64,000 nt of DNA from Cupriavidus oxalaticus (lineage in GTDB: Bacteria; Pseudomonadota; Gammaproteobacteria; Burkholderiales; Burkholderiaceae): NCBI RefSeq assembly GCF_004768545.1, contig NZ_CP038635.1, positions 1,116,001-1,180,000 of the forward strand, read 5' to 3'. Below the pieces are notes generated by a model that was given only the letters and a program-made list of their open reading frames with translations, was not told the origin of the DNA and ran no database searches. Of the stretch, positions 4,420 through 46,433 are shown in pieces. Within the stretch, counting starts at the first letter, position 1. Every line of letters begins with the position of its first letter. The translations under genes and the position numbers were made by a program.

Positions 4420-5676
4420 TTACTTCGCCGCGGTCTGGTGATACTTGCGGATGAAATCGCGCAGGTCCGGATAGATGTTCTCGCGCCAGCGCCGGCCCGA
4501 GAAAATCCCGTAGTGGCCGCAACGCGGCGCGGTGATGTGCTGCTTGCGGTCTTTCGGGATGCCGCTGCACAGGTCGTGCGCGGCGGCAGTCTGGCCCGCG
4601 CCCGAGATATCGTCCAGTTCGCCTTCCACCGTCATCAGCGCGGTGCCCTCGATATCCTGCGGCCGCACCGGCTTGCCATCGATGGCCCACGTGCCGTTGG
4701 CCAGGCGGAATTCCTGGAACACTTCGCGGATGGTGTCGAGGTAATAGTCGGCGGCCATGTCCAGCACCGCGTTGTACTCGTCGTAGAAGCGCACATGCGC
4801 CTCGGCGTCGTCGGCGTCGCCCTCGACCAGGCTCAGGTAATAGTCATAGTGCGAGGACAGGTGCCGGTCCGGGTTCATCGCCACGAAGCCGGCATGCTGC
4901 AGGAAGCCCGGGTACACGCGGCGGCCGTGGCCGGGGTAGTTGGCCGGCACGGTGTAGATCACGTTGTTCTCGAACCACTCGAAGGACTTGTTGGTGGCCA
5001 GCGAATTGACGGCGGTCGGGCTCTTGCGGGCATCGATCGGGCCACCCATCATGGTCATGGTGCGCGGCGTGGTCTCGCCGGCCGAGGCCAGCAGCGAGAT
5101 CGCGGCCAGCACTGGCACGGTCGGCTGGCACACCGACACCACATGCAGGTTTTCGGCGCCGATATGGCGGATGAATTCCTGAATATAGTAGATGTAGTCC
5201 GACAGGTGGAAGGCACCGTCTTCGGCCGGCACCATGCGCGCGTCGATCCAGTCGGTCACGTAGACCTTGTGGTCCTGCAGCAGCGTGCGCACGGTGTCGC
5301 GCAGAAGCGTGGCGTGGTGGCCCGACAGCGGCGCGCACACCAGCACCACCGGCTCATCCTTCAGCAGCTTGATGGTTTCCGGGTCGTCGGCATAGCGCTT
5401 GAAGCGCAGCAGCTTGCAGAACGGCTTTTCCAGCACGGACTGTTCGACGATGGGGATGTCGCGGCCGTTGGAGCGCACCGACTTGATGTCGAATGCCGGC
5501 TTTTCGTATTCCTTGCCGAGCCGGTACAGCAGCTCATAGCCCGCCGCAAGCCGGGGGGCGCCGGGAACCAGCGACATCGGGCTGAGGGGATTGGTGAAAG
5601 TCTTGGCGGTCGCCTGGGCCCATGCGGTGAGCGGGTGCAGGATCGAGCGCTGGAACTCATGCAGTTGGTAGAGCAT
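4420..5676 (-). CDS. phaZ: Intracellular poly(3-hydroxybutyrate) depolymerase
   Basis: Degrades amorphous PHB in storage granules so that stored carbon can be reused. The ATG at 5676 gives 418 residues, the usual length; an upstream in-frame ATG would add 21 residues that look non-coding. The nucleophile Cys183 (VSVCQPTVPV), Asp355 (EGELDD) and His388 (CGHYGIFSG) match the Cys-Asp-His triad reported for the C. necator enzyme PhaZ1, at identical numbering. As in that family there is no signal peptide and the nucleophile is cysteine, not serine. The gene stands alone, converging on a TetR regulator. Its upstream region carries a candidate promoter and palindromes. This gene is the best taxonomic marker in the window. 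Confidence 0.97.
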   Translation of the reverse strand: MLYQLHEFQRSILHPLTAWAQATAKTFTNPLSPMSLVPGAPRLAAGYELLYRLGKEYEKPAFDIKSVRSNGRDIPIVEQSVLEKPFCKLLRFKRYADDPETIKLLKDEPVVLVCAPLSGHHATLLRDTVRTLLQDHKVYVTDWIDARMVPAEDGAFHLSDYIYYIQEFIRHIGAENLHVVSVCQPTVPVLAAISLLASAGETTPRTMTMMGGPIDARKSPTAVNSLATNKSFEWFENNVIYTVPANYPGHGRRVYPGFLQHAGFVAMNPDRHLSSHYDYYLSLVEGDADDAEAHVRFYDEYNAVLDMAADYYLDTIREVFQEFRLANGTWAIDGKPVRPQDIEGTALMTVEGELDDISGAGQTAAAHDLCSGIPKDRKQHITAPRCGHYGIFSGRRWRENIYPDLRDFIRKYHQTAAK

Positions 5677-6001
5677 GCCGTTTCTGCCTGTCTTACTTTT
5701 GGTCACGTACCACCAAGTACTAATGTACTGACAATACACCTGGGATCGTCGCGGATTATGCCCGTTATCGAACGACCGTGCTAACGATCTTGCTTTGCAG
5801 CATATACCTTAAGGTACTTCCCTATCTGCGGAACACAATAAGGCATTCGCCTGATATTTGGATGACACTGTCCTACAAGACTGAAAACAAATGCAAAAAG
5901 CGGCCGAGGCCGCTTTTTTAATGACGCTTTGTGATGCTTGCGCCAGTTGCAACGCACTGTCACGTGTTGCCGCCCGTTGCCGCGCAGCAACGCTGGCAGC
6001 C
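5677..6001. promoter_or_regulatory. phaZ upstream region with palindromes and candidate promoter
   Basis: A 325-bp gene-free stretch. Read in the phaZ direction it contains a candidate promoter (TTAGCA, 18 bp, CATAAT at about 5755-5784) and a perfect 12-bp palindrome TACCTTAAGGTA at 5805-5816, upstream of that promoter. A short dyad AGTAC-TAAT-GTACT lies at 5716-5729, near the ribosome binding site. The tyrB terminator occupies 5895-5918. The palindromes could bind a regulator of PHB mobilisation; this is inference and I could not assign a known factor. Confidence 0.4.
5895..5919 (-). terminator. Intrinsic terminator downstream of tyrB
   Basis: Stem arms AAAAAGCGGCC and GGCCGCTTTTT with a tiny GA centre, flanked by A and T tracts on either side. 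It lies about 85 bases past the aminotransferase stop and insulates the phaZ promoter region. The A/T flanks would allow function in both directions. Confidence 0.85.
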
Positions 6002-28910: not shown

Positions 28911-31394
28911 GTGCGGTTACAACTCTGGCTGTGTGCAATCAGCCGGGGAGATGCCGTGCGCGTGTTCGTGGTGGCGTTCGTCGCGGGATGCTGGCTGCTG
29001 CAGCAGCAGGCAACGCTGCCGCGGCAGGACGTCGTGCGCGTGGCCGCTGCCGGTCTGGTGCTGGCGGCCATCGCGATGCTGCTGCGTGGCAGGCGCCTGC
29101 GTGCCGCATGGCGGGGACTGGTGCTGGCCGCCGTGGCCGCGGTGGCCGTTGGTGCCGCGTTCTGCTGGGCGGCATGGCGCGCCGATATGCGCTTGCGGGA
29201 GTGGTTGCCCGCATCGCTCGAATCGCGCGATCTCGACGTGCAGGGTGTGGTTTCCGGATTGCCGTCCGAATCAGCGGGCGGCGTCCGCTTTGCCTTCACC
29301 GTCGGGAAGACCGTGCCGGATGGGGCGGACGAACCAGGATTGACGTTGCCCGGCCGGCTGCTTCTCCACTGGCGCGACGCGCCGCCTGACCTGTACCCCG
29401 GCCAGCGCTATACCCTGACCATACGCCTGCGGCGCCCGCGCGGACTGGCCAATCCCTTCGGCTTCGACTATGCCTATTGGCTGCTGGCGCAGGGCTATGG
29501 CGCGACGGGCTACGTACGACGCGCGCATGGTCCGCCGCAGGAGGCAACGCGGGAACGGCTCGCATGGCGCATCGAAGCGTGGCGCGCGGCAGTGCGCGAT
29601 CACCTGCGCGCGGCGCTGCCGGATGATGCGCGCTATGGCCCGGTGCTGGTCGCGCTGGTGATCGGCGACCAGCGCGGCATCGATACGGAAGACTGGCAGT
29701 TGTTCCGGCGTACCGGCATCAGCCACCTTGTCAGCATTTCAGGCCTGCACATCACCATGATCGCTGGCATGGCGGGGTCGTTCGCCGGCATGCTGTGGCG
29801 GCATTCGTTCGGGCTGGGGCGCCGGCTGCGCCGGCCGCTGCCCCTGTGGCTGCCGGCCAGGCACGCGGCCCTGGTGACGGCGGTAGCCGGTGCGGTGACA
29901 TACGGGCTGCTGGCCGGGATGCAGGTGCCCGCGTTGCGCACGGTGGCGATGCTATGCGTGGCCGCACTGGCGGTGTGGAGTGGGCGGGCACCGCCGGCGT
30001 CGGTGGTGCTGGCTTGTGCGGCACTGGCGGCGTTGCTGCTGGATCCGTGGGCGGTGATGTCGCCGGGCTTCTGGCTGTCTTTCGGCGCGGTGGCGGTGAT
30101 CTTCTACGCTGCCCGGTCCGGGCATGGCGCGCCGGAAACTCGCTGGCAACGCATGCGTGCCACGCTTGCCGCCGCGGCGCGCACGCAATGGGCGGTCACA
30201 GCCGGGCTGGTGCCGCTGACGCTGTTGCTGTTCCAGCAGGTGTCGGTGGTGTCGCCGCTCGCCAATGCTATCGCGATCCCGGTGGTCAGCCTGCTGGTGA
30301 CGCCACTGTCGCTGGCTGCCGCCGCCGCGCCGGCCATGCTGGCCACGCCGTTGCTGGCCGTCGCGCACCAGGCCATGGTATGGCTGGCCGCCTTGCTGGG
30401 TTGGCTTTCCGGCCTGCCGTGGGCCATGTGGGAGGCGCCGGCATCGGGGCCGTTGCCGCTGCTGCTCGCCCTGCTCGGGATCGCGCTGTTGCTGGCGCCG
30501 CCTGCCAGTGCCGCGGCGCGCCTGCATGGCGGCCTGCTGGTGTTGCCGCTCGTATTGGCGCGCGGCCCGCCGGTGGCGCATGGCGAGTTCCGTGCGGTGA
30601 TGCTCGACGTGGGGCAGGGGACCGCGGTGCTGGTGCAGACGCGTACGCATGCGCTGCTGTACGACACGGGCCCTGGCTATGCATCGGGCTCCAGTGCGGG
30701 CGCGCAAGTGGTGGTGCCGGTGCTGCGCGGCCTGGGTCTCGGCCGGCTCGACCAGCTGATGGTCAGCCATGAAGACGCGGATCATGCCGGTGGTGTGGCT
30801 GACGTGGCGGCGGCGGTGGCCGTAGCGGCGCGCAGTACCGGCGCGCCGCCGCACCATGCCTTGCTCGGGCCGCCAGCATCCGGCTGGGCGCCGTGCGCGG
30901 ACGGCCAGCAATGGGACTGGGACGGCGTGCGTTTCACGGTGCTGCATCCGTTGCCATTGCAGTCGCAACAGGCGGCGATCGCCAGCAACGCCCGTAGCTG
31001 TGTGCTGAGCGTGGCGACCGCGCGGCATCGCCTGTTGCTGACCGGCGATATCGGCGTGGCCGAAGAACGCGCGCTGATCGACAGGCTGCCGCCCGAAGCG
31101 CTGCATGCCGACGTGATGGTGGTGGCGCACCACGGCAGCGGCACCTCTTCCGGTGCAGCGTGGCTGGACGCGGTGCGGCCCCGGGCGGCGGTATTCCAGC
31201 TTGGCTATGCCAACCGCTACCGCCACCCCCGCGCCGACGTGTGGGAGCGCTATGGACGCGCCGGCATCGCGCGCTACCGCACTGACGAAACCGGCGCGGT
31301 GACCATGGCCACCGCGCCGGCGGGCTATACGCTGTCGGTGTTCCGGCAGGCTGAGCCGCGCTATTGGCGCACCAGGCCGGATGCGCCGCGCTAG
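28911..31394 (+). CDS. comEC: DNA internalisation channel ComEC/Rec2
   Basis: Inner-membrane channel for transforming DNA, 827 residues from the GTG at 28911. The N-terminal region has two to three hydrophobic segments and an OB-like DUF4131 part. The central Competence domain (HLVSISGLHITMIAG) has several membrane helices. The C-terminal metallo-beta-lactamase domain carries VMLDVGQGTAVLV, MVSHEDADHAGG and LLLTGDIG, so the nuclease-like site is intact. The TAG stop (31392-31394) lies within the 12-bp target duplicated by the adjacent IS element, so the full protein is retained. Natural competence is possible but not shown. Confidence 0.93.
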   Translation: MRLQLWLCAISRGDAVRVFVVAFVAGCWLLQQQATLPRQDVVRVAAAGLVLAAIAMLLRGRRLRAAWRGLVLAAVAAVAVGAAFCWAAWRADMRLREWLPASLESRDLDVQGVVSGLPSESAGGVRFAFTVGKTVPDGADEPGLTLPGRLLLHWRDAPPDLYPGQRYTLTIRLRRPRGLANPFGFDYAYWLLAQGYGATGYVRRAHGPPQEATRERLAWRIEAWRAAVRDHLRAALPDDARYGPVLVALVIGDQRGIDTEDWQLFRRTGISHLVSISGLHITMIAGMAGSFAGMLWRHSFGLGRRLRRPLPLWLPARHAALVTAVAGAVTYGLLAGMQVPALRTVAMLCVAALAVWSGRAPPASVVLACAALAALLLDPWAVMSPGFWLSFGAVAVIFYAARSGHGAPETRWQRMRATLAAAARTQWAVTAGLVPLTLLLFQQVSVVSPLANAIAIPVVSLLVTPLSLAAAAAPAMLATPLLAVAHQAMVWLAALLGWLSGLPWAMWEAPASGPLPLLLALLGIALLLAPPASAAARLHGGLLVLPLVLARGPPVAHGEFRAVMLDVGQGTAVLVQTRTHALLYDTGPGYASGSSAGAQVVVPVLRGLGLGRLDQLMVSHEDADHAGGVADVAAAVAVAARSTGAPPHHALLGPPASGWAPCADGQQWDWDGVRFTVLHPLPLQSQQAAIASNARSCVLSVATARHRLLLTGDIGVAEERALIDRLPPEALHADVMVVAHHGSGTSSGAAWLDAVRPRAAVFQLGYANRYRHPRADVWERYGRAGIARYRTDETGAVTMATAPAGYTLSVFRQAEPRYWRTRPDAPR

Positions 31395-33967: not shown

Positions 33968-34017
33968 GCGATCGCGCCGCTTTGGTGCTACGCCCCGACA
34001 AAAGGAACGCCTCCGCC

Positions 34018-35913
34018 ATGCCCATTGCCGTCCATGCCGAGCTGTTGGCCGTCACCGAACGCATCGTTGCCCGCAGCCGCGCCAGCCGTGCCGCCTACCT
34101 TGCACGCTGCGAGCGTGCGCAAGCCGAGCTGGGACCGCTGCGCGGCATGTCCTGCGCCAACCTGGCGCACGGCTTCGCCGCACTGCCAGCCAACGACAAG
34201 CTGAAGCTGCGCGTCGACCATGCGCCCAATCTCGGCATCGTCACCGCGTACAACGACATGCTGTCGGCGCACCAGCCCTATGAGCGCTACCCCGGCGTCA
34301 TCCGCGAAGCCGCGCGCGCGGTCGGGGCCGTGGCGCAGGTGGCGGGCGGCGTGCCGGCGATGTGCGATGGCATCACGCAGGGCAACGCCGGCATGGAGCT
34401 GTCGCTGTTCTCGCGCGATGCGATTGCCATGGGCACGGCCATCGCGTTGTCGCACAACACCTTCGATGCGGCGCTGATGCTGGGCGTGTGCGACAAGATC
34501 GTGCCGGGCCTGCTGATGGGCGCGCTGCAGTTCGGCCACCTGCCGGTAGTGTTCGTGCCGGCGGGCCCGATGGCCACCGGCCTGTCCAACAAGGAGAAGG
34601 CGCGCGTGCGCCAGCTTTACGCCACCGGCCAGGTTGGCCGCGATGCGCTGCTCGAGGCCGAATGCCAGGCCTACCACGGGGCCGGCACCTGTACCTTCTA
34701 TGGCACCGCCAACAGCAACCAGTTCCTGATGGAGATCATGGGCCTGCACCTGCCCGGCGCGGCCTTCGTCCACCCGGACAGCGGCCTGCGCGATGCGCTG
34801 ACGGCCGCGGCGGCGCAGCGCGCGATTGCGCTGAGTGCGCGCGGCAGCGACTACCTGCCGCTGGCGCGCATCGTCGACGAGCGCGCCGTGGCCAACGCCA
34901 TGGTCGGCCTGCTGGCGACAGGCGGCTCGACCAACCACACCATTCACCTGGTGGCCATGGCGCGCGCCGCCGGCATCATCATCGACTGGGACGACTTCGA
35001 CCGACTGTCGCGCATCACGCCGCTGCTGGCGCGGGTGTACCCGAACGGCTCCGCCGACGTGAACCACTTCCATGCCGCCGGCGGGGCCGGGCTGATTATC
35101 CGCGAGCTGCTGCAGGCCGGGCTGCTGCATGAGGACGTGCAGACCGTCGCGGGCCCGGGCCTGGCGCGCTACACGCAGGAGCCGGTGATGCGCGATAGCG
35201 TGCTGCAATGGCGCGAGGGGGCGACGGCAAGCGGCGACGCCCAGGTCGTTGCCAGCGCCGCGGCGCCGTTCTCGCCCGAAGGCGGGCTGCGGCTGATGCA
35301 GGGCAACCTGGGCCGCGGTGTGATCAAGGTCTCGGCCGTGGCGCCCGAGCATCGCGTGGTTGAGGCGCCGGTGCGCGTCTTCGATGCGCAGGAAGCGCTG
35401 CAGGCCGCGTTCGATGCCGGCGAACTGAATGGCGACCTGGTCGCCGTGGTCCGCTTCCAGGGGCCGAACGCCAACGGCATGCCCGAGCTGCACCGCCTGA
35501 CGCCGGTGCTGGGCGCGCTGCAGGACGCCGGCCACAAGGTGGCGCTGGTGACCGACGGGCGCATGTCGGGCGCGTCGGGCAAGGTGCCTGCGGTGATCCA
35601 CGTCGGCCCTGAGGCACTGGCCGGCGGCGCGCTGGCCCGCGTGCGCGACGGCGACCGCATCCGCGTCGACGCGGTCGCCGGCGTGCTGCAATGGCTGGGC
35701 GACGAGGGCGAGTTCGCGGCGCGCGAGCCGGCGCCGGCCCCGGCCGACGATTTTGCCCGGTTCAGCCTCGGGCGCGGCCTGTTTGGCTCGTTCCGGCGCC
35801 ATGCGCGCATCGCGGAAGAGGGGGGCAGCGCACTCGACCTGTCCGAAGCGGATGCCGGCGCCGCGCCAGGCGCATCCGCCGCTGCCGTGGCGGCGCAAAC
35901 CGTCGCACAATAG
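34018..35913 (+). CDS. edd: 6-phosphogluconate dehydratase
   Basis: First committed enzyme of the Entner-Doudoroff pathway, turning 6-phosphogluconate into 2-keto-3-deoxy-6-phosphogluconate. The ATG at 34018 (631 residues) has AAAGGAA upstream; a GTG 12 codons earlier is less likely. IlvD/Edd-family Fe-S motifs are visible: CDGITQG (Cys116), GVCDK (Cys158) and [11 protein letters not shown] (Cys225), with the C-terminal [14 protein letters not shown]. The C-terminal 25 residues are an Ala-rich extension. No eda (KDPG aldolase) gene is in the window. The palindrome upstream and divergent hexR suggest induction by the pathway intermediate. Confidence 0.96.
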
Positions 35914-35967: not shown

Positions 35968-36453
35968 ATGATCTATATCCTGATGGGCGTTTCCGGCAGC
36001 GGCAAGACCACGGTCGGCCAGCTGCTGGCGCAGCGCCTGGGCTGCGGCTTCCATGACGCGGACGAATTCCACAGCGAGGCCAACAAGGCCAAGATGCACG
36101 CGGGCATCCCGCTGACCGACGAAGACCGCTGGCCCTGGCTGGCGGCGATGCGCGCCGCCATCGACACGGCGCGCGCCGAAGGCCGGACCCACGTGTTCAC
36201 TTGCTCGGCCCTGCGCCAGGCGTACCGCGACCGGCTCACGCCGCCAGACGGCGGCGTGACCTTCGTCCACATGAAGGGCGATGCCGCACTGATCGCCGGG
36301 CGCCTGTCCGCCCGCACCGACCACTTCTTCAATCCCGAGCTGCTGCAGAGCCAGTTCGATACGCTGGAAGCGCCGCGCGACGCGCTGGAGCTCGATATCC
36401 GCCAGTCGCCCGAAGTCCTGGTGGACACCATCCTGCAGGCTTCCGCTCGCTGA
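35968..36453 (+). CDS. gntK: Gluconokinase
   Basis: Small P-loop kinase (161 residues) that makes 6-phosphogluconate, the substrate of Edd. Walker A is [10 protein letters not shown] at 6-15. [20 protein letters not shown] and [10 protein letters not shown] are typical of the GntK/IdnK family. It starts 54 bp after edd, so edd-gntK form a gluconate-catabolic operon probably under HexR. A terminator follows it. Confidence 0.94.
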
Positions 36454-36775
36454 GCCTTTCGCCCGCGATCCACCGCGCCATCGCAATGACGGCCGCCAGC
36501 CTCGCCGGCGGCCGTTTTTGCGTGCGCTGGCAGACATCTTGCTAGCTCACTTTCCGTGCCGGCCAGGATTCGCCAGCTTGCGGCTTTCGCCGGTACAGGT
36601 ATGCTGAAAGGGCCAGTGACTCGACAGTATCGCCGCGCCAATGCCATCGGAGACCCTCCCGGGCCCCGGGGCAATAACGCGGCGGGCTTGTGGCAGGACA
36701 GCCAGGTCAAACCAGGGCGGCCGGATGCGGGGCAGTGGCAGCACCCGACGCCCACTACATGGAGGAACGGCCATC
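36454..36775 (+). promoter_or_regulatory. Intergenic region: gntK terminator and leader of the Anbu operon
   Basis: A 322-bp stretch without a gene. It has the gntK terminator at 36489-36519, then a candidate promoter TTGCGG (36578-36583), 16 bp, TATGCT (36600-36605), leaving about 165 bases of untranslated leader before the ATP-grasp gene. No other strong secondary structure or small gene was seen. Confidence 0.4.
36489..36519 (+). terminator. Intrinsic terminator of edd-gntK
   Basis: ACGGCCGCC, nine-base loop, GGCGGCCGT followed by four more Ts. Lies 35 bases after the gntK stop. Confidence 0.88.
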
Positions 36776-38251
36776 ATGGCAGGGCGGTTTTTCGACGAGA
36801 TGCTGGACTGGCGCGCCGACGGGGCGCCCACGGTCATCCAGGCAGGGCAGGCATTGCCCGACGGGGCGGTACGCCCGCATTACCGGCATTTCGCTGACTG
36901 GCTGGCGCGGCAGTCCGGCGGCACCATGGACAACAAGCGGGCCGAGGCGGACCTGATCTTCCGGCGCGTGGGCATTACCTTTGCCGTCTATGGCGACAAG
37001 GACGAAGCCAACAGCGGCACCGAGCGCACCATCCCGTTCGACGTGATCCCGCGCATCTTCCCGGCCAGCGAATGGGCGCTGCTGGAAAAAGGCCTGCGCC
37101 AGCGCGTGGCTGCGCTGAACCGGTTCATCCACGACATCTACCACGGCCAGGACATCATCCGGGCCGGCGTGATCCCGCCCGATCAGATCTACAACAACGC
37201 CCAGTACCGACCCGAGATGCTCGGCGTCACCGTGCCGCACGACATCTATGCGCACGTGGCCGGCATCGACGTGGTGCGTGCCGGCGAGGGCGAGTTCTAC
37301 GTGCTGGAAGACAACCTGCGCGTGCCCTCCGGCGTGTCGTACATGCTGGAAAACCGCAAGATGATGATGCGGCTGTTCCCGGACCTGTTCGCACGCAACC
37401 GCGTCGCGCCGGTGGCGCACTATCCCGACCTGCTGCTCGACATGCTGCGCGGCGTATCGCCGCAGGCGATCGCCGATCCCACGGTGGTGGTGCTGACTCC
37501 GGGCATGTATAACTCGGCGTACTTCGAGCACGCCTTCCTGGCGCAGCAGATGGGCGTTGAACTGGTCGAAGGCAGCGACCTGTTCGTCGAGGACGACCAC
37601 CTGTTCATGCGCACCACGCAGGGGCCGCAGCGCATCGACGTGATCTACCGGCGCGTCGACGACGACTTCCTCGACCCGCTGGTGTTCCGGCACGATTCCG
37701 CGCTTGGCGCGGCCGGGCTGCTGTCGGTCTACCGTGCCGGCAACGTGACCATCTGCAATGCGATCGGCACCGGCGTGGCGGACGACAAGTCGATCTATCC
37801 GTACGTGCCCGACATGATCCGCTTCTACCTCGGCGAAGAGGTCATCCTCAACAACGTACCCACCTACATGTGCCGGCGTCCCGACGACCTGCAGTACGTG
37901 CTCGACCATATGCAAGAGCTGGTAGTCAAGGAAACCCACGGCGCCGGCGGCTACGGCATGCTGGTGGGTCCGGCCGCGACGCGCGCCGAGATCGATGCCT
38001 TCCGCGAGGTGGTCAAGGCCAGGCCCGAGCAGTACATCGCGCAGCCGACGCTGGCGCTGTCGACCTGCCCGACCTATGTGGAGTCGGGCATCGCCCCGCG
38101 CCATATCGACCTGCGCCCGTTCGTGCTGTCGGGCAAGGAGGTGCGCATGGTGCCCGGCGGGCTCACGCGCGTGGCGCTGCGCGAGGGCTCGCTGGTGGTC
38201 AATTCCTCGCAAGGGGGCGGCACCAAGGACACCTGGGTGCTCGAACGATGA
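36776..38251 (+). CDS. Circularly permuted ATP-grasp protein (Anbu locus)
   Basis: The ATG at 36776 with GGAGGAA upstream gives 491 residues; 45 codons of open frame before it lack coding character. The sequence (YNNAQYRPEMLGVTVPHDIYAHVAG and HGAGGYGMLVGP, with VLEDNLRVPSGVSYM) is that of the DUF404/DUF407/DUF403 circularly permuted ATP-grasp family. Such enzymes are predicted amide or peptide ligases. First gene of an operon with an alpha-E protein, a transglutaminase and Anbu, a combination known from comparative genomics. The ligated substrate is not known. Confidence 0.92.
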   Translation: MAGRFFDEMLDWRADGAPTVIQAGQALPDGAVRPHYRHFADWLARQSGGTMDNKRAEADLIFRRVGITFAVYGDKDEANSGTERTIPFDVIPRIFPASEWALLEKGLRQRVAALNRFIHDIYHGQDIIRAGVIPPDQIYNNAQYRPEMLGVTVPHDIYAHVAGIDVVRAGEGEFYVLEDNLRVPSGVSYMLENRKMMMRLFPDLFARNRVAPVAHYPDLLLDMLRGVSPQAIADPTVVVLTPGMYNSAYFEHAFLAQQMGVELVEGSDLFVEDDHLFMRTTQGPQRIDVIYRRVDDDFLDPLVFRHDSALGAAGLLSVYRAGNVTICNAIGTGVADDKSIYPYVPDMIRFYLGEEVILNNVPTYMCRRPDDLQYVLDHMQELVVKETHGAGGYGMLVGPAATRAEIDAFREVVKARPEQYIAQPTLALSTCPTYVESGIAPRHIDLRPFVLSGKEVRMVPGGLTRVALREGSLVVNSSQGGGTKDTWVLER

Positions 38252-38330
38252 CGACGACAGCCCCTCACGCGATCAAGACCGCGAGCAACACCGCGATCAA
38301 CACCGCCGCTGCCATGCCAGGAGAGCCCAC

Positions 38331-39284
38331 ATGCTGAGCCGTACCGCCGACCACCTGTTCTGGATGGCCCGCTACACCGAGCGCGCGGAAAACACCGCAC
38401 GGATGCTCGACGTCAACTACCAGACCTCGCTGCTGCCGCAGTCGGCCGAGGTGGCCGAGCAGGGCTGGTGGGCGATGCTCGATATCTCGGAGCTGACGCA
38501 GGCCTTCGACCACAAGTACGGCCTGCTGTCGCGCGACGACGTGATCGACTTCATGGTGCGCGACATGACCAATGTGTCGTCGATCATGAGTTGCCTGCGC
38601 GCGGCACGCGAGAACGCGCGCGCGGTGCGCGGCTCGCTGACCACCGAAGTCTGGGAAACCGTCAACACGACCTGGCTCGACGTGCAGCGCATGATCGCCG
38701 ACGGCGTACTCAGGGAAGACCCGTCGAGCTTCTTCGAATGGGTCAAGTTCCGCTCGCACCTGGCGCGCGGCGTGCAGTTCGGCACCATGCTCAAGGACGA
38801 TGCCTTTCACTTCATGCGGCTGGGCACCTTCCTGGAGCGCGCCGACAATACCGCGCGGATCCTCGACGTCAAGTTCCAGGCCTCGGGCAGTGACGACAGC
38901 GATCCCAACCGCGAGCAGAACGACTTCTACCACTGGGCTGCGGTGCTGCGCTCGGTGTCCGGCTTCGAGGTCTACCGCAAGGTGTATCGCGCGGTGGTCA
39001 CGCCACAGCGCGTGGCCGAACTGCTGGTGCTGCGCCCCGACATGCCGCGCTCGCTGGTGTCGAGCATGGACGAGGTGGTGACGATCCTGGCCATGGTGCG
39101 CAACCAGCAGTCGGCGGAGACCGAGCGGCAGGCTGGTAAACTCCACGCCGACCTCAAATACGCGCGCATCGACGACATCTTTGCCGTCGGCCTGCATGCG
39201 TACCTGACCAGCTTCCTGGAGCGCATCGGCGATCTCGGCAATGGCATCAGCCGGGACTTCCTGGTACCGCTGCAGGCGGCCTGA
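38331..39284 (+). CDS. Alpha-E domain protein (DUF403)
   Basis: The ATG at 38331 with CAGGAGAG upstream gives 317 residues beginning MLSRTADHLFWMARYTERAENTA, the diagnostic start of the alpha-E family. It is all-helical with repeated Glu/Arg-rich motifs (RLGTFLERADNTARILDV). Family members always accompany circularly permuted ATP-grasp and transglutaminase genes and are thought to help peptide or amide synthesis. It follows the ATP-grasp gene by 79 bp. The exact biochemical role is unknown. Confidence 0.92.
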   Translation: MLSRTADHLFWMARYTERAENTARMLDVNYQTSLLPQSAEVAEQGWWAMLDISELTQAFDHKYGLLSRDDVIDFMVRDMTNVSSIMSCLRAARENARAVRGSLTTEVWETVNTTWLDVQRMIADGVLREDPSSFFEWVKFRSHLARGVQFGTMLKDDAFHFMRLGTFLERADNTARILDVKFQASGSDDSDPNREQNDFYHWAAVLRSVSGFEVYRKVYRAVVTPQRVAELLVLRPDMPRSLVSSMDEVVTILAMVRNQQSAETERQAGKLHADLKYARIDDIFAVGLHAYLTSFLERIGDLGNGISRDFLVPLQAA

Positions 39285-39340
39285 CATGGGCGCGCCGGCA
39301 ACGACCATGTGCTGCCGCCGCCGCGCCGCGCCCTGATACC

Positions 39341-40186
39341 GTGAAATACAAGATCCACCACCATACTGTCTACCGCTATGCCGAGCCGGTGCGCCGCAGC
39401 GTGCACGAGCTGCGGCTCGAGCCGCGCTCGGGCCCGCTGCAGACCGTGCACAGCTGGCAGCTGAGCACGCCGGGCAACCCGTCGGCGGCGTGCGACGGCT
39501 TCGGTAACATCGTGCACAACTTCACCGTGGCGGGCCCGGCGGACACCATTGCCATCGAAGCCAGCGGCGAAGTGGAAGTGCTGCCTCCGCATGGCGACCT
39601 CGACCGCGACGGCCACCATGCCTTCTGCGATGCGCCGCCGGCCGGCGAATCGCGCGTGTCGCCGCTGTACTTCCTCGGCAGCACGCCGCTGACCACGGCG
39701 CCGCGCGAGATGCAGGCCTTCGCCGCGCCTTTCCTGGCCTCGGGCCATGAAATTCCCGCGTTGCTGGCGCTGGCCCAGGCCATCGGCGAACGCGTCCGCT
39801 ACAAGCCCAATACCACCGATGTCGGGACTTCAGCCGCCGAGGCGTTCGGCCTGGGCAGCGGCGTGTGCCAGGATCAGGCGCAAGTGATGGTGGCGGTATG
39901 CCGCGCGCTCGGTGTGCCGGCGCGCTATGTGAGCGGCTACTTCTACGATCCCGCCGCGACCGAACTGGCCAGCCATGCATGGGCCGACGTTTGTCTGGAT
40001 CCCCAGCGCGAGATCTGGTGCAGCATCGACATCACCCACGGCTGCCTCACCGACGAGCGCCATGTCCGCCTCGCCGTGGGGCGCGACTACCAGTCTGCCG
40101 CACCGGTCCGGGGCATCCTGGAGGGCGGTGCCGGCGAGACGCTCGAGGTCAATGTCGTGATCACGCCGCTTGCCGATCCGGTCTAG
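39341..40186 (+). CDS. Transglutaminase-like cysteine protease
   Basis: A 281-residue protein from the GTG at 39341 (MKYKIHHHTVYRYAEPVRRS), with the N-terminal beta domain usual in bacterial transglutaminase-like proteins. The catalytic triad is complete: Cys176 (GSGVCQDQAQ), His212 (SHAWADV) and Asp230 (CSIDITHG). Such proteins hydrolyse or transfer amide bonds. Third gene of the Anbu operon, 56 bp after the alpha-E gene. No signal peptide, so it is cytoplasmic like its partners. Confidence 0.92.
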   Translation: MKYKIHHHTVYRYAEPVRRSVHELRLEPRSGPLQTVHSWQLSTPGNPSAACDGFGNIVHNFTVAGPADTIAIEASGEVEVLPPHGDLDRDGHHAFCDAPPAGESRVSPLYFLGSTPLTTAPREMQAFAAPFLASGHEIPALLALAQAIGERVRYKPNTTDVGTSAAEAFGLGSGVCQDQAQVMVAVCRALGVPARYVSGYFYDPAATELASHAWADVCLDPQREIWCSIDITHGCLTDERHVRLAVGRDYQSAAPVRGILEGGAGETLEVNVVITPLADPV

Positions 40187-40316
40187 CTTCGGCCGCGCCA
40201 ATTAGGTGCCACATTCCAGAACCGGCACCGAGACACGGCAGCGGCGCTAGAATCCGTTAATGCAGCCCTCCGGCCGGCCACTCCCGGCCGTCCGACAAGA
40301 ACACCAGAACAAGACC

Positions 40317-41138
40317 ATGACGTACTGTGTAGCCATGCGGCTGGATGCCGGCCTGGTATTCCTGTCCGATTCCCGCACCAACGCCGGGGTGGACGCCATC
40401 TCGACGGCACGCAAGATGACCGTGTTCGAAGAGCCAGGCGACCGCGTGATGGTGCTGATGACCGCGGGCAACCTCGCCATCAGCCAGTCGGTGCGCCAGA
40501 TCCTGGCGGAGAACCACGACGACAAGCGCTCGTTGTGGAACGCGCGGGACATGTTCGAAGCCGCGTCCATCGTCGGTGACGCGGTGCGCCAGGTGCACAA
40601 GCGCGACGCGCATGCGCTGCGCGATGCCGGCATCGAATTCAACGTCAGCCTGATCTTCGGCGGCCAGGTCCGCGGCGAGCGGGTGCGGCTGTTCAACATC
40701 TATGCTGCCGGCAACTTCGTCGAAGCCACGCCGGAAAACTGTTATTTCCAGATCGGCGAGGCCAAGTACGGCAAGCCCATCATCGACCGCGTCGTGCATC
40801 CGTCGCTGCCGCTGGCCGAGGGCGCGAAATGCGCGCTGATCTCGATGGATTCGACGCTGAAGTCCAATATTTCAGTGGGTTTGCCGCTGGACCTGCTGGT
40901 CTACGAGGCGGATTCGCTGCGCGTGACGCGCTTCGTCAACATCGACGAGCGCAACGCCTATTTCCGCATGATCCGCGATACCTGGGGCCACCGGCTGCGC
41001 CAGGTGTTCGGCGAAATCCACAACCCCGAATGGGACCCGGCCCTGCCGGCCGACTTCCCGCTGGCGCGCAGCGGCGAGGGCGACTGCTGGGGCCAGCCCG
41101 TGCGCGCCAGGCGCAATCCCTCCCGCACCCAGGAATGA
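40317..41138 (+). CDS. Anbu, ancestral proteasome-like peptidase
   Basis: A 273-residue Ntn-hydrolase of the Anbu (ancestral beta subunit) group. The ATG at 40317 places Thr2 directly after Met, so removal of Met exposes the nucleophile without a propeptide. Asp18 (LSDSRTNAG) and Lys33 (TARKM) complete the proteasome-type triad, equivalent to Thr1, Asp17 and Lys32. Length and the long C-terminal part (RDTWGHRLRQVFGEIHNPEW) fit the family, which forms open helical oligomers, not closed rings. It follows the transglutaminase by 130 bp and its stop overlaps the next gene. Substrates are unknown. Confidence 0.93.
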   Translation: MTYCVAMRLDAGLVFLSDSRTNAGVDAISTARKMTVFEEPGDRVMVLMTAGNLAISQSVRQILAENHDDKRSLWNARDMFEAASIVGDAVRQVHKRDAHALRDAGIEFNVSLIFGGQVRGERVRLFNIYAAGNFVEATPENCYFQIGEAKYGKPIIDRVVHPSLPLAEGAKCALISMDSTLKSNISVGLPLDLLVYEADSLRVTRFVNIDERNAYFRMIRDTWGHRLRQVFGEIHNPEWDPALPADFPLARSGEGDCWGQPVRARRNPSRTQE

Positions 41139-41956
41139 GGGGCGGGGCGGTGCGCGAGATCATCCATTTTTCACATGCCAACGGCTTTCCGGTCACGACG
41201 TACCGCAAGCTGTTCGGCGAACTGGACGGCGAGTTCGAGTTCCGCGCCGTGGACCGTTACGGCCACCGGCCCCAGTTTCCGGTCACGCGTGGCTGGCCGC
41301 ATCTGGTGGAAGAACTGCTCGAGGAAGTGGGGCGCCAGTACCGCGAGCCGGTCTGGCTGGTGGGCCATTCGCTGGGCGGCTTCCTGTCGATGATGGCGGC
41401 GCTGCGCCGGCCCGAATGGGTGCGCGGCGTGGTGATGCTGGATTCGCCGATCATTGCCGGCTGGCGCGCCTCGCTGCTGAAGACGGCGCAGGTGCTCGGC
41501 ATCGACGAAAAGCCCGGCCCGGCGGCGGTGACGAAGAACCGGCGCACGCACTGGCCCGATGCCGAGGCCGTGTGGCAGCACTTCCGCGGCAAGCCGAATT
41601 TTGCCGTGTGGGACCAGGAGGTGCTGCGCGACTATGCGCTCCATGGCACCGAGCCGACCGGCAAGGGCAACGAGCGGCGCCTGCGCTTCGACCGCGAGGT
41701 CGAGTACTCGATCTACCGCACGCTGCCTACCAGCCTGGGGCGCAAGCTCAGGCGGGGCGCGCCGGTGCCGGTCGGCTTTGTCGCCGGTACGCGCTCGCGC
41801 GAGGTGCGCCAGTGCGGCCTTGCCGCGACCCGCAAGCTCGTGGGCGAAAACCTGCGCTTTATCGAGGGCGGCCATTTATACCCGATGGAGCGGCCGCAGG
41901 AAACGGCGCAACTGGTGCGCGACCTGATCGGAGCGATGCGCCGCGACGGGCGCTGA
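41135..41956 (+). CDS. Alpha/beta hydrolase coupled to Anbu
   Basis: About 273 residues from the ATG at 41135, whose ATGA overlaps the Anbu stop; a GTG at 41150 behind GAGGGGCGGGGC is an alternative. The protein starts with the strand and oxyanion region IIHFSHANGFPVTTY, has the nucleophile elbow VGHSLGGF, and ends with the histidine region EGGHLYPMERPQ. The nucleophile is Ser. Substrate unknown: esterase, lipase or amidase are all possible. Translational coupling suggests it belongs functionally to the Anbu locus, though the pairing may be lineage-specific. Confidence 0.85.
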   Translation: MRGGAVREIIHFSHANGFPVTTYRKLFGELDGEFEFRAVDRYGHRPQFPVTRGWPHLVEELLEEVGRQYREPVWLVGHSLGGFLSMMAALRRPEWVRGVVMLDSPIIAGWRASLLKTAQVLGIDEKPGPAAVTKNRRTHWPDAEAVWQHFRGKPNFAVWDQEVLRDYALHGTEPTGKGNERRLRFDREVEYSIYRTLPTSLGRKLRRGAPVPVGFVAGTRSREVRQCGLAATRKLVGENLRFIEGGHLYPMERPQETAQLVRDLIGAMRRDGR

Positions 41957-42097: not shown

Positions 42098-43782
<1,685 letters not shown>

Positions 43783-43809: not shown

Positions 43810-44679
43810 ATGAAACTCTGTGGATTCGAGGTCGGCCTCGACAAGCCGTTCTTCCTGATCGCCGGTCCGTGCGTGATCGAGTCCGAGCAGATGGCGCTGG
43901 ATACCGCCGGCGAGCTCAAGGCCATCACCGCTGAACTGGGCATCCCGTTCATCTACAAGTCGTCGTTCGACAAGGCCAACCGTTCTTCCGGCAAATCGTT
44001 CCGCGGCCTGGGGATGGAGAAGGGCCTGGAGATCCTGGCGACCGTCAAGCGCGAAGTCGGCGTGCCGGTGCTGACCGACATCCACGAGATCGACGAGATC
44101 AAGCCCGTCGCCGCCGTGGTCGACGTGCTGCAGACCCCGGCCTTCCTGTGCCGCCAGACCGATTTCATCCGTGCCTGCGCCCAGAGCGGCAAGCCGGTGA
44201 ACATCAAGAAGGGCCAGTTCCTGGCGCCGGGCGACATGAAGAACGTGATCGACAAGGCCCGCGACGCCGCGCGCGAAGCCGGCCTGCCGGATGACGTCTT
44301 CATGGCCTGCGAACGCGGCGTCTCGTTCGGCTACAACAACCTCGTGTCCGACATGCGCTCGCTGGCGATCATGCGCGAGACCGGTGCCCCGGTGGTGTTC
44401 GACGCCACCCACTCGGTGCAGCTGCCGGGCGGCCAGGGCACCAGCTCCGGCGGCCAGCGCGAGTTCGTGCCGGTGCTGTCGCGCGCCGCCGTCGCCACCG
44501 GCGTGGCGGGCCTGTTCATGGAAACGCACCCGGATCCGAGCAAGGCGATGTCCGACGGCCCCAACGCGGTGCCGCTGTCGCGCATGAAGGAACTGCTGGC
44601 CGTACTCAAGGAACTGGACACGCTGGTCAAGCGCGCCGGTTTCCTGGAAGACAACTTCGGCTGGCCGGCCTGCGCCTGA
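43810..44679 (+). CDS. kdsA: Kdo-8-phosphate synthase, metal-dependent type
   Basis: Condenses arabinose 5-phosphate and phosphoenolpyruvate to Kdo-8-phosphate for lipopolysaccharide. The 289-residue TIM-barrel protein has [11 protein letters not shown] near its start, with Cys21 where metal-independent enzymes such as that of E. coli have Asn; this marks the metal-dependent class. [11 protein letters not shown] is the phosphate/PEP-binding segment. AGAGGAG precedes the ATG. A hairpin follows the stop. Confidence 0.97.

Positions 44680-45101: not shown

Positions 45102-46433
<1,332 letters not shown>

Follow-up and report, generated by a model that had tools for sequence, protein, structure and literature searches.

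A 64,000-nucleotide stretch of Cupriavidus oxalaticus DNA (contig NZ_CP038635.1, positions 1,116,001 to 1,180,000; hereafter the window) carries at positions 36776 to 41956 five consecutive plus-strand open reading frames, which encode, in that order, an ATP-grasp protein, an Alpha-E protein, a transglutaminase-like protein, the proteasome beta-subunit homologue Anbu, and an alpha/beta hydrolase. The first four are the published four-gene Anbu operon. We put at about 70% the probability that the locus is this known operon behind a candidate sigma-54 promoter and that the hydrolase is an old chromosomal neighbor whose adjacency to Anbu is retained old gene order. The hydrolase is read as a neighbor because its presence is uncorrelated with that of Anbu, because the four-gene operon is found elsewhere without it, and because it keeps company with comEC or pyrG where Anbu is absent. 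An earlier, sequence-only reading had treated the hydrolase as a coupled part of the system that might hint at its chemistry. The gene identities and gene order which that reading proposed hold up against the list of open reading frames, Pfam, and matches to solved Anbu structures; the coupling does not, the hydrolase being kept and lost independently of Anbu. Overall, we see the locus as an unremarkable instance of an operon that is known but unexplained; its gene-order history is informative, and it likely has a nitrogen promoter.

Gene content of the Anbu locus

The first gene (36776 to 38251) encodes a circularly permuted, type 2 ATP-grasp protein of 491 amino acids, a predicted amide-bond ligase (PF14403, E = 1.8e-168; PF04174, E = 1.5e-154; the Pfam scan used the longer reading frame from 36641). 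The start at 36776 is preceded by GGAGGA and agrees with the 491-residue relatives at L144 to L146. The second gene (38331 to 39284) encodes the helical protein Alpha-E, with two ERA motifs (PF04168, E = 6.8e-100), a family whose older name we take to be DUF403. It is followed by a GTG-initiated gene (39341 to 40186) for a papain-fold, transglutaminase-like protein (PF08379, E = 3e-23; PF01841, E = 7.3e-21) that retains Cys176, His212, and Asp230, presumably the catalytic triad. Anbu itself (40317 to 41138) scores slightly below the PF00227 cutoff (21.7 versus 22.4 bits) and matches 5loy, 5nyw, 5nyj, 5nyf, and 5lox, all at E = 3.3e-63 or better, two of these five entries being titled just "Peptidase"; after removal of the initiator Met, the active-site residues Thr1, Asp17, and Lys32 are in place (numbering from PMC6376114). 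Together with Ser79 and His247 of the hydrolase, these readings bear out, for the transglutaminase-like protein, Anbu, and the hydrolase, the claim that catalytic residues are present. The genes lie on a single strand, with gaps of 79, 56, and 130 bases inside the four-gene set and 11 bases before the hydrolase. The genome holds one Alpha-E gene, one Anbu match, and one hydrolase match at E = 1e-10, and among named relatives it comes closest to Cupriavidus sp. LEh25 and sp. amp6 (97% identity in the hydrolase; 99% to LEh25 in Anbu).

The order of the first four genes has already been published (PMC5666114, PMC6376114; here and below, papers are cited from the parts of their text that were available). 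The sequence-only reading was right to call them a conserved association of unconfirmed function: in those parts, the role is described as unconfirmed by experiment. Published tests found no peptidase or amidase activity for Anbu and no complex among the operon proteins (PMC6376114), and the Yersinia ATP-grasp protein liberates phosphate from ATP (PMC5666114, PMC6376114). As judged from listings, one open-access library yielded no mention of a hydrolase adjoining Anbu.

The fifth gene (PF12697, E = 7.9e-15) is a genuine serine-hydrolase-like gene, as had been proposed. Its reading frame opens at 41135, and the letters ATGA at 41135 to 41138 do overlap Anbu, as the sequence-only reading had noted; the overlap is probably a start-codon artifact and not the real junction. 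In a junction alignment, the codon read as GTG 41150 in the window is an ATG in almost every Cupriavidus relative. One of the two nearest relatives (L148) carries a stop in place of the window's upstream ATG, and the other (L149) keeps that ATG and has a further one a single codon past the 41150 position. The hydrolase gene proper probably runs from GTG 41150 to 41956, beginning 11 bases past the Anbu stop and encoding 268 residues; because the real gap is probably 11 bases, we make no claim of translational coupling by overlap.

Hydrolase residue numbers follow the 273-residue form read from 41135. Across 90 distinct stop-free sequences, obtained from 115 loci with a match spanning at least 230 residues, Ser79 (within the nucleophile motif GHSLGG), Asp103, and His247 are each conserved in 90 and Ser221 in 89. 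The fold predicted with an alignment (pLDDT 90.3; a version without alignment, at pLDDT 43, was not used) is closest among solved structures to E-2-(acetamidomethylene)succinate (E-2AMS) hydrolase (PDB 3kxp, 23% identity), an ammonia-releasing amide hydrolase in which a Ser, an Asp 24 residues on, Ser230, and a His have assigned roles (PMC3538738). The window's hydrolase has the same Ser-Asp-Ser-His set when aligned to 3kxp, with the His one residue off register in this ungapped alignment. The substrate residues of E-2AMS hydrolase are Arg146, Arg167, Tyr168, Arg179, and Tyr259 (PMC3538738); Arg136 and Arg187 of our protein are invariant in a 42-row alignment (A1), in a region that the 3kxp alignment does not reach. 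Glu223, in the usual position of the acid after strand 7, was considered and rejected: it is invariant in A1 and falls outside the 95%-conserved columns of the 90-row set, where Asp103 is present throughout. Although databases use such names, identities as BioH (27.4 bits versus an NCBIfam curated 206.95), MenH (22.7 versus 208.55), and PcaD (21.8 versus 255.85) were also rejected, all three scores being far too low. On the modeled fold, the fifth gene is predicted to be a serine hydrolase of the E-2AMS-hydrolase-like kind.

Distribution and chromosomal history of the hydrolase

Families and genera are denoted below by codes (f1, f49, g1, and so on). Adjacency was counted in the window's family as starts less than 2 kb apart on the same contig, in f49 as the same strand with a gap of -50 to 500, and in the genus by inspection of coordinates, with a gap of up to 0.8 kb. 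Among 60 genomes of the genus, 59 have Anbu and 50 the hydrolase; of the nine with Anbu and no hydrolase match, five were read (L143 to L147), and in all five the remaining operon is complete and in order. Across 200 sampled genomes of the window's family, the hydrolase occurs in 143 and Anbu in 135 (99 with both, 44 with the hydrolase alone, and 36 with Anbu alone), and the two are unassociated (Fisher p = 0.41; 143 of 153 hydrolase genomes were counted, with ten weak matches at E of about 1e-20 to 1e-11 excluded and a few fragmentary copies retained). They are likewise unassociated (p = 0.16) in 120 genomes of f49, a family called Comamonadaceae-like here on the basis of one named Limnohabitans locus within its clade (hydrolase 92, Anbu 98, both 78, hydrolase alone 14, Anbu alone 20).

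Genomes with both genes have them adjacent in 36 of 99 cases in the window's family, all from genera g1, g95, g112, and g113, and apart in 63; in f49, Anbu is directly upstream in 51 of 78, on the same strand within 8 kb in 8, and far apart in 19. Confinement of the hydrolase to the window's lineage, which the sequence-only reading had named as a danger to its proposal, is ruled out by these 51 pairs. By inspection, 150 genomes of the order (hydrolase 24, Anbu 76) have the two adjacent only in G000 and three f49 genomes, and 274 genomes of the class (hydrolase match 20, Anbu 69) have no adjacency outside Burkholderiales. Whether judged by co-occurrence or by co-relocation, the hydrolase does not behave like an indispensable fifth component of the system.

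Gene orders were read from tblastn layouts of fetched loci, in which 16 reference proteins are visible. The flanking genes concerned lie on the plus strand of the window: comEC (28911 to 31394; PF03772, E = 2.3e-57), edd (33982 to 35913; synteny), gntK (35968 to 36453; PF01202, E = 8.7e-9, and synteny), pyrG for CTP synthase (42130 to 43782; PF06418, E = 9.1e-125, and synteny), and, as a conserved flank by synteny, kdsA (43810 to 44679) and eno (45144 to 46433). The names kdsA, eno, edd (phosphogluconate dehydratase), and gntK (gluconate kinase) are presumptive. Burkholderia-like genera, so called from the database names of hydrolases at 57 to 60% identity, have lolC-lolD-tatD-comEC-hydrolase-pyrG-kdsA-eno without Anbu, and comEC also adjoins the hydrolase without Anbu in Duganella (L170, L171) and in G007 (L109, family f8). 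In L131 (g113, at a guess Ralstonia) and L132 (g95), the order is comEC, ATP-grasp, Alpha-E, transglutaminase-like, Anbu, hydrolase, pyrG; Cupriavidus has this order with edd-gntK inserted between comEC and ATP-grasp (comEC to edd seen in L145 to L147, edd to ATP-grasp in L142 to L147 and the named Cupriavidus loci). In f49, comEC stands directly before ATP-grasp-Alpha-E at 13 of 18 loci, and mutS-Anbu-hydrolase occupies a separate site. The upstream position next to comEC is thus held by the hydrolase in Burkholderia-like genera and by ATP-grasp in g113, g95, and most Comamonadaceae-like loci read, while pyrG follows the hydrolase in both families, if not at every locus. For Burkholderia-like genomes with a hydrolase gene, we read six Anbu loci: four (L222, L225, L227, L228) hold the four genes together, and two (L226, L229) hold Anbu alone. 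The four-gene order is thus separate from the hydrolase in G119, G273, and G316 (Anbu loci L222, L225, and L227; hydrolase loci L108, L128, and L138) and in G253 (L228).

From these orders, with the two separated halves in f49, the Anbu operon likely once sat between comEC and the hydrolase in an ancestor of both families. On the simplest reconstruction, the starting state would be an old comEC-hydrolase pair, with the Anbu operon placed between the two in the common ancestor; the arrangement would later have been retained in the Cupriavidus group and split in f49, and in Burkholderia-like genera the operon would have moved off, leaving the hydrolase behind. The hydrolase would then be an old resident of the comEC-pyrG region in which the operon came to lie, probably co-transcribed by read-through and not required by the Anbu system. 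The hydrolase tree mostly tracks families, with f1 rows in one group (99) and f49 rows in another (83), the exceptions being L113, an f10 genome in the f49 group, and L169 in the Cupriavidus group. The latter comes from Luteimonas padinae, a gammaproteobacterium of another order; it sits on a long branch, shares 50% identity with the hydrolase of the window, and reflects either transfer or contamination. Repeated joining of Anbu and the hydrolase was considered and set aside, in that gene orders fit one shared ancestral order better; this is unproven.

Several observations weigh against this history or against mere neighborhood. All 50 hydrolase copies in Cupriavidus lie directly after Anbu (one Anbu is partial and one gap is 0.75 kb). 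In f49, the hydrolase keeps Anbu though the other operon genes sit elsewhere (18 Alpha-E loci were read there, and Anbu is visible at none), and at 9 of 13 adjacent f49 pairs read, pyrG is not seen downstream, the pair outlasting both sets of neighbors (pyrG-kdsA-eno follows directly in the other four, L196, L198, L199, and L204). The hydrolase tree requires no fewer than 10 changes in adjacency. In an Anbu tree of 96 rows (distinct matches of more than 200 residues with no early stops), Cupriavidus joins the f49 Anbu with modest support (85/85), counter to simple vertical descent; the likelihood is 5.1 higher with these two held together (p-AU = 0.604), and a tree uniting the Cupriavidus and Burkholderia-like Anbu in one clade also survives the test (p-AU = 0.371). 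Finally, the proposed history demands a renewed departure of the operon from the comEC-hydrolase junction in Burkholderia-like genera.

It is unlikely, in our estimate, that the hydrolase is instead a true accessory of one Anbu type, one that acts on the product of ATP-grasp or Anbu by taking off an acyl or amide group, in a pair held together by selection, with the ammonia or carboxylate so freed being reused under nitrogen limitation. Such a role would fit the frequency of adjacency in the two families, the persistence of the pair where the rest of the operon, and often pyrG as well, is no longer beside it, and a closest solved fold that belongs to an ammonia-releasing amide hydrolase. It would also fit the observation that all 51 adjacent f49 pairs involve an Anbu 58 to 69% identical to the window's and never the type below 57%, which at the five loci read is part of a classic four-gene operon (L206, L208, L209) or stands alone (L205, L207). 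In C. numazuensis (L158) and C. laharis (L159), moreover, extra DNA separates the transglutaminase-like gene from Anbu by 3.4 and 4.1 kb with Anbu-hydrolase-pyrG intact, and this, with the survival of the f49 pair, keeps a functional link in play. Against it stand the uncorrelated presence of the two genes in both families, the four-gene operons without a hydrolase beside them in G119, G273, G316, and G253, the nine Cupriavidus genomes with Anbu and no hydrolase, and the want of adjacency outside Burkholderiales in the class sample; L210 and L211 in f49 have a 62 to 66% Anbu inside a four-gene operon without the hydrolase. Somewhat less improbable is a working partnership of the hydrolase with pyrG-kdsA-eno or comEC, in a housekeeping or envelope role with Anbu as a mere passenger; this is compatible with the hydrolase being an old neighbor, and the odds of the two overlap. 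In both families the hydrolase does lie beside pyrG, and in three lineages that lack Anbu at the site it lies beside comEC, but some f49 hydrolases adjoin neither (mutS-hydrolase-uppP at L176; hydrolase-uppP at L175 and L182), and no partner is constant.

Two further observations on gene order concern other parts of the operon. In L133 (G228, a 2.6-Mb genome of the window's family), the block from ATP-grasp to the hydrolase survives in pieces, with comEC on one side and pyrG on the other, as though all of it were decaying in concert. At L252, L254, L257, L258, L262, and L267 to L270, many of them in Comamonadaceae-like genomes and one in a Burkholderia-like genome without Anbu, a second, distant ATP-grasp gene (32 to 36% identity) and transglutaminase-like genes lie near ATP-grasp-Alpha-E. 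Many of these genomes have a second Alpha-E within long frames of about 860 to 1080 amino acids, perhaps a larger fusion protein.

A candidate sigma-54 promoter

The promoter candidate (TGGCAGACATCTTGCT, GG-N10-GC; 36528 to 36543, plus strand) lies after gntK, 232 bases upstream of the ATP-grasp start, and is the sole match on both strands of the window to the sigma-54 consensus TGGCA-N6-TTGCW. It was first spotted by eye and tested afterwards, and the single match is weak by itself because 27 of 100 shuffled windows hold at least one (mean 0.31). All 25 Cupriavidus regions that precede ATP-grasp contain the strict core, as do 5 of 18 others (L217 and L218 in f4, L224 in f18, L227 in g109, and L133 in g112, there inside a decayed comEC); of 553 control regions, taken in front of 14 other genes at the same loci, none contains it. 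A looser score (10 of 12) gave 34 of 43 for ATP-grasp and 11 of 553 for the controls. The regions tested were distinct, at least 150 bases long, and taken at an aligned start with ATP-grasp identity of at least 60% (at least 40% for controls); since the Cupriavidus regions all come from a single lineage and the control regions overlap with further genes, the counts do not represent independent events. Among 19 further, new loci (L271 duplicates L131), the strict core occurs once, at L264.

Nitrogen control is a known trait of Anbu-type operons, and the conserved core likely extends it to Cupriavidus. We take the names DUF404/407 and DUF403 to be equivalents of the ATP-grasp and Alpha-E families. 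Expression of DUF404/407, DUF403, and transglutaminase-domain genes was down 6.0- to 9.4-fold in a Burkholderia cenocepacia ntrC mutant (PMC5491218). In Pseudomonas putida grown on nitrate versus ammonium, the proteasome beta-subunit gene PP_2685 was up by 4.44 log2 units and the ATP-grasp gene PP_2688 by 3.99 (PMC8050072), and a sigma-54 survey includes COG3484, a proteasome-type protease (PMC12316311). Anbu expression has also been described as moderate, constitutive, and unchanged under various conditions, and as upregulated in nitrogen-limited P. putida (PMC5666114).

Moderate constitutive expression, the shuffled windows, and the discovery by eye would all suit the idea that the site is a chance match and that the operon stands outside nitrogen control in Cupriavidus. 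So would three null results that count against our own interpretation: no site was found upstream of ATP-grasp in g113 or g95; the NtrC-type palindrome GCAC-N6-8-GTGC, searched for across 600 bp upstream, occurs in 13 of 75 loci, none of them from Cupriavidus; and Cupriavidus scores for the 17-base NtrC consensus are not above background. We nonetheless judge a chance site very unlikely, given the strict core in every Cupriavidus region and at five other loci with none in the controls, the palindromes close upstream of the core in L217, L218, and L224, and nitrogen-dependent expression in two genera (PMC5491218, PMC8050072).

Directly before the candidate promoter and just after gntK, at 36490 to 36519, lies a GC-rich inverted repeat (CGGCCGCC, a 9-base loop, GGCGGCCG) followed by TTTTT. 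It looks like a candidate gntK terminator that would isolate the Anbu operon; the terminator scan, with a loop limit of 8, did not list it. One weak sigma-70 promoter match and one weak terminator match within the locus, both on the minus strand, were rejected as not above chance. An Rfam scan of the entire window returned no family at the gathering threshold. Elsewhere in the window, positions 4420 to 5739 (minus strand) encode a polyhydroxybutyrate (PHB) depolymerase-type protein (PF06850, E = 1.9e-99).

Possible function and comparison with known systems

With a sigma-54 candidate in front, the operon would probably be on when ammonium is scarce. Enzyme families and the literature suggest, as the likeliest role, a nitrogen-stress cycle in which a small molecule or protein would acquire an amide or peptide bond through ATP-grasp with Alpha-E, and bonds of this kind would be cut by Anbu and the papain-fold enzyme. 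One Burkholderiales Anbu type might work with a dedicated amidase of the E-2AMS-hydrolase-like kind, such that Anbu, or ATP-grasp with Alpha-E, makes an N-acyl or amide-linked acidic compound under nitrogen starvation and the hydrolase frees its nitrogen; we regard this as quite unlikely, and if true it would explain why, in the Comamonadaceae-like family, Anbu and hydrolase stayed paired when the rest of the operon left.

Taking the hydrolase to be an old neighbor, we would caution against reading it as a clue to the chemistry. The sigma-54 core and the published Burkholderia and Pseudomonas data together suggest that the operon's product be sought under nitrogen limitation. Gene orders also provide natural experiments that reveal dispensable couplings, Anbu being apart from ATP-grasp and Alpha-E in much of f49 and the hydrolase being freely kept or lost.

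The likeness of the hydrolase to E-2AMS hydrolase (3kxp, PMC3538738) lies in the predicted fold and the Ser-Asp-Ser-His set, at 23% identity. Among proteasome-like families without an unfoldase, BPH and connectase share the proteasome-like Ntn-hydrolase family with Anbu, which differs from them as an open split ring with no known function in the available text (PMC8665760). The NtrC- and sigma-54-dependent genes BCAM1233-1236 of B. cenocepacia resemble the present locus in combining ATP-grasp, Alpha-E, and transglutaminase-like genes with sigma-54; Anbu is not among the genes named in the available part of that report (PMC5491218), and the enhancer site was not found in Cupriavidus. The four-gene Anbu operon as it stands in Yersinia bercovieri and Pseudomonas (PMC6376114, PMC5666114) is alike in gene content, gene order, and Anbu active-site residues. 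To this the Cupriavidus locus adds the alpha/beta hydrolase, pyrG-kdsA-eno downstream, a conserved sigma-54 core upstream, and an Anbu of 273 amino acids that extends about 30 residues past the stretch matched by the solved chains.

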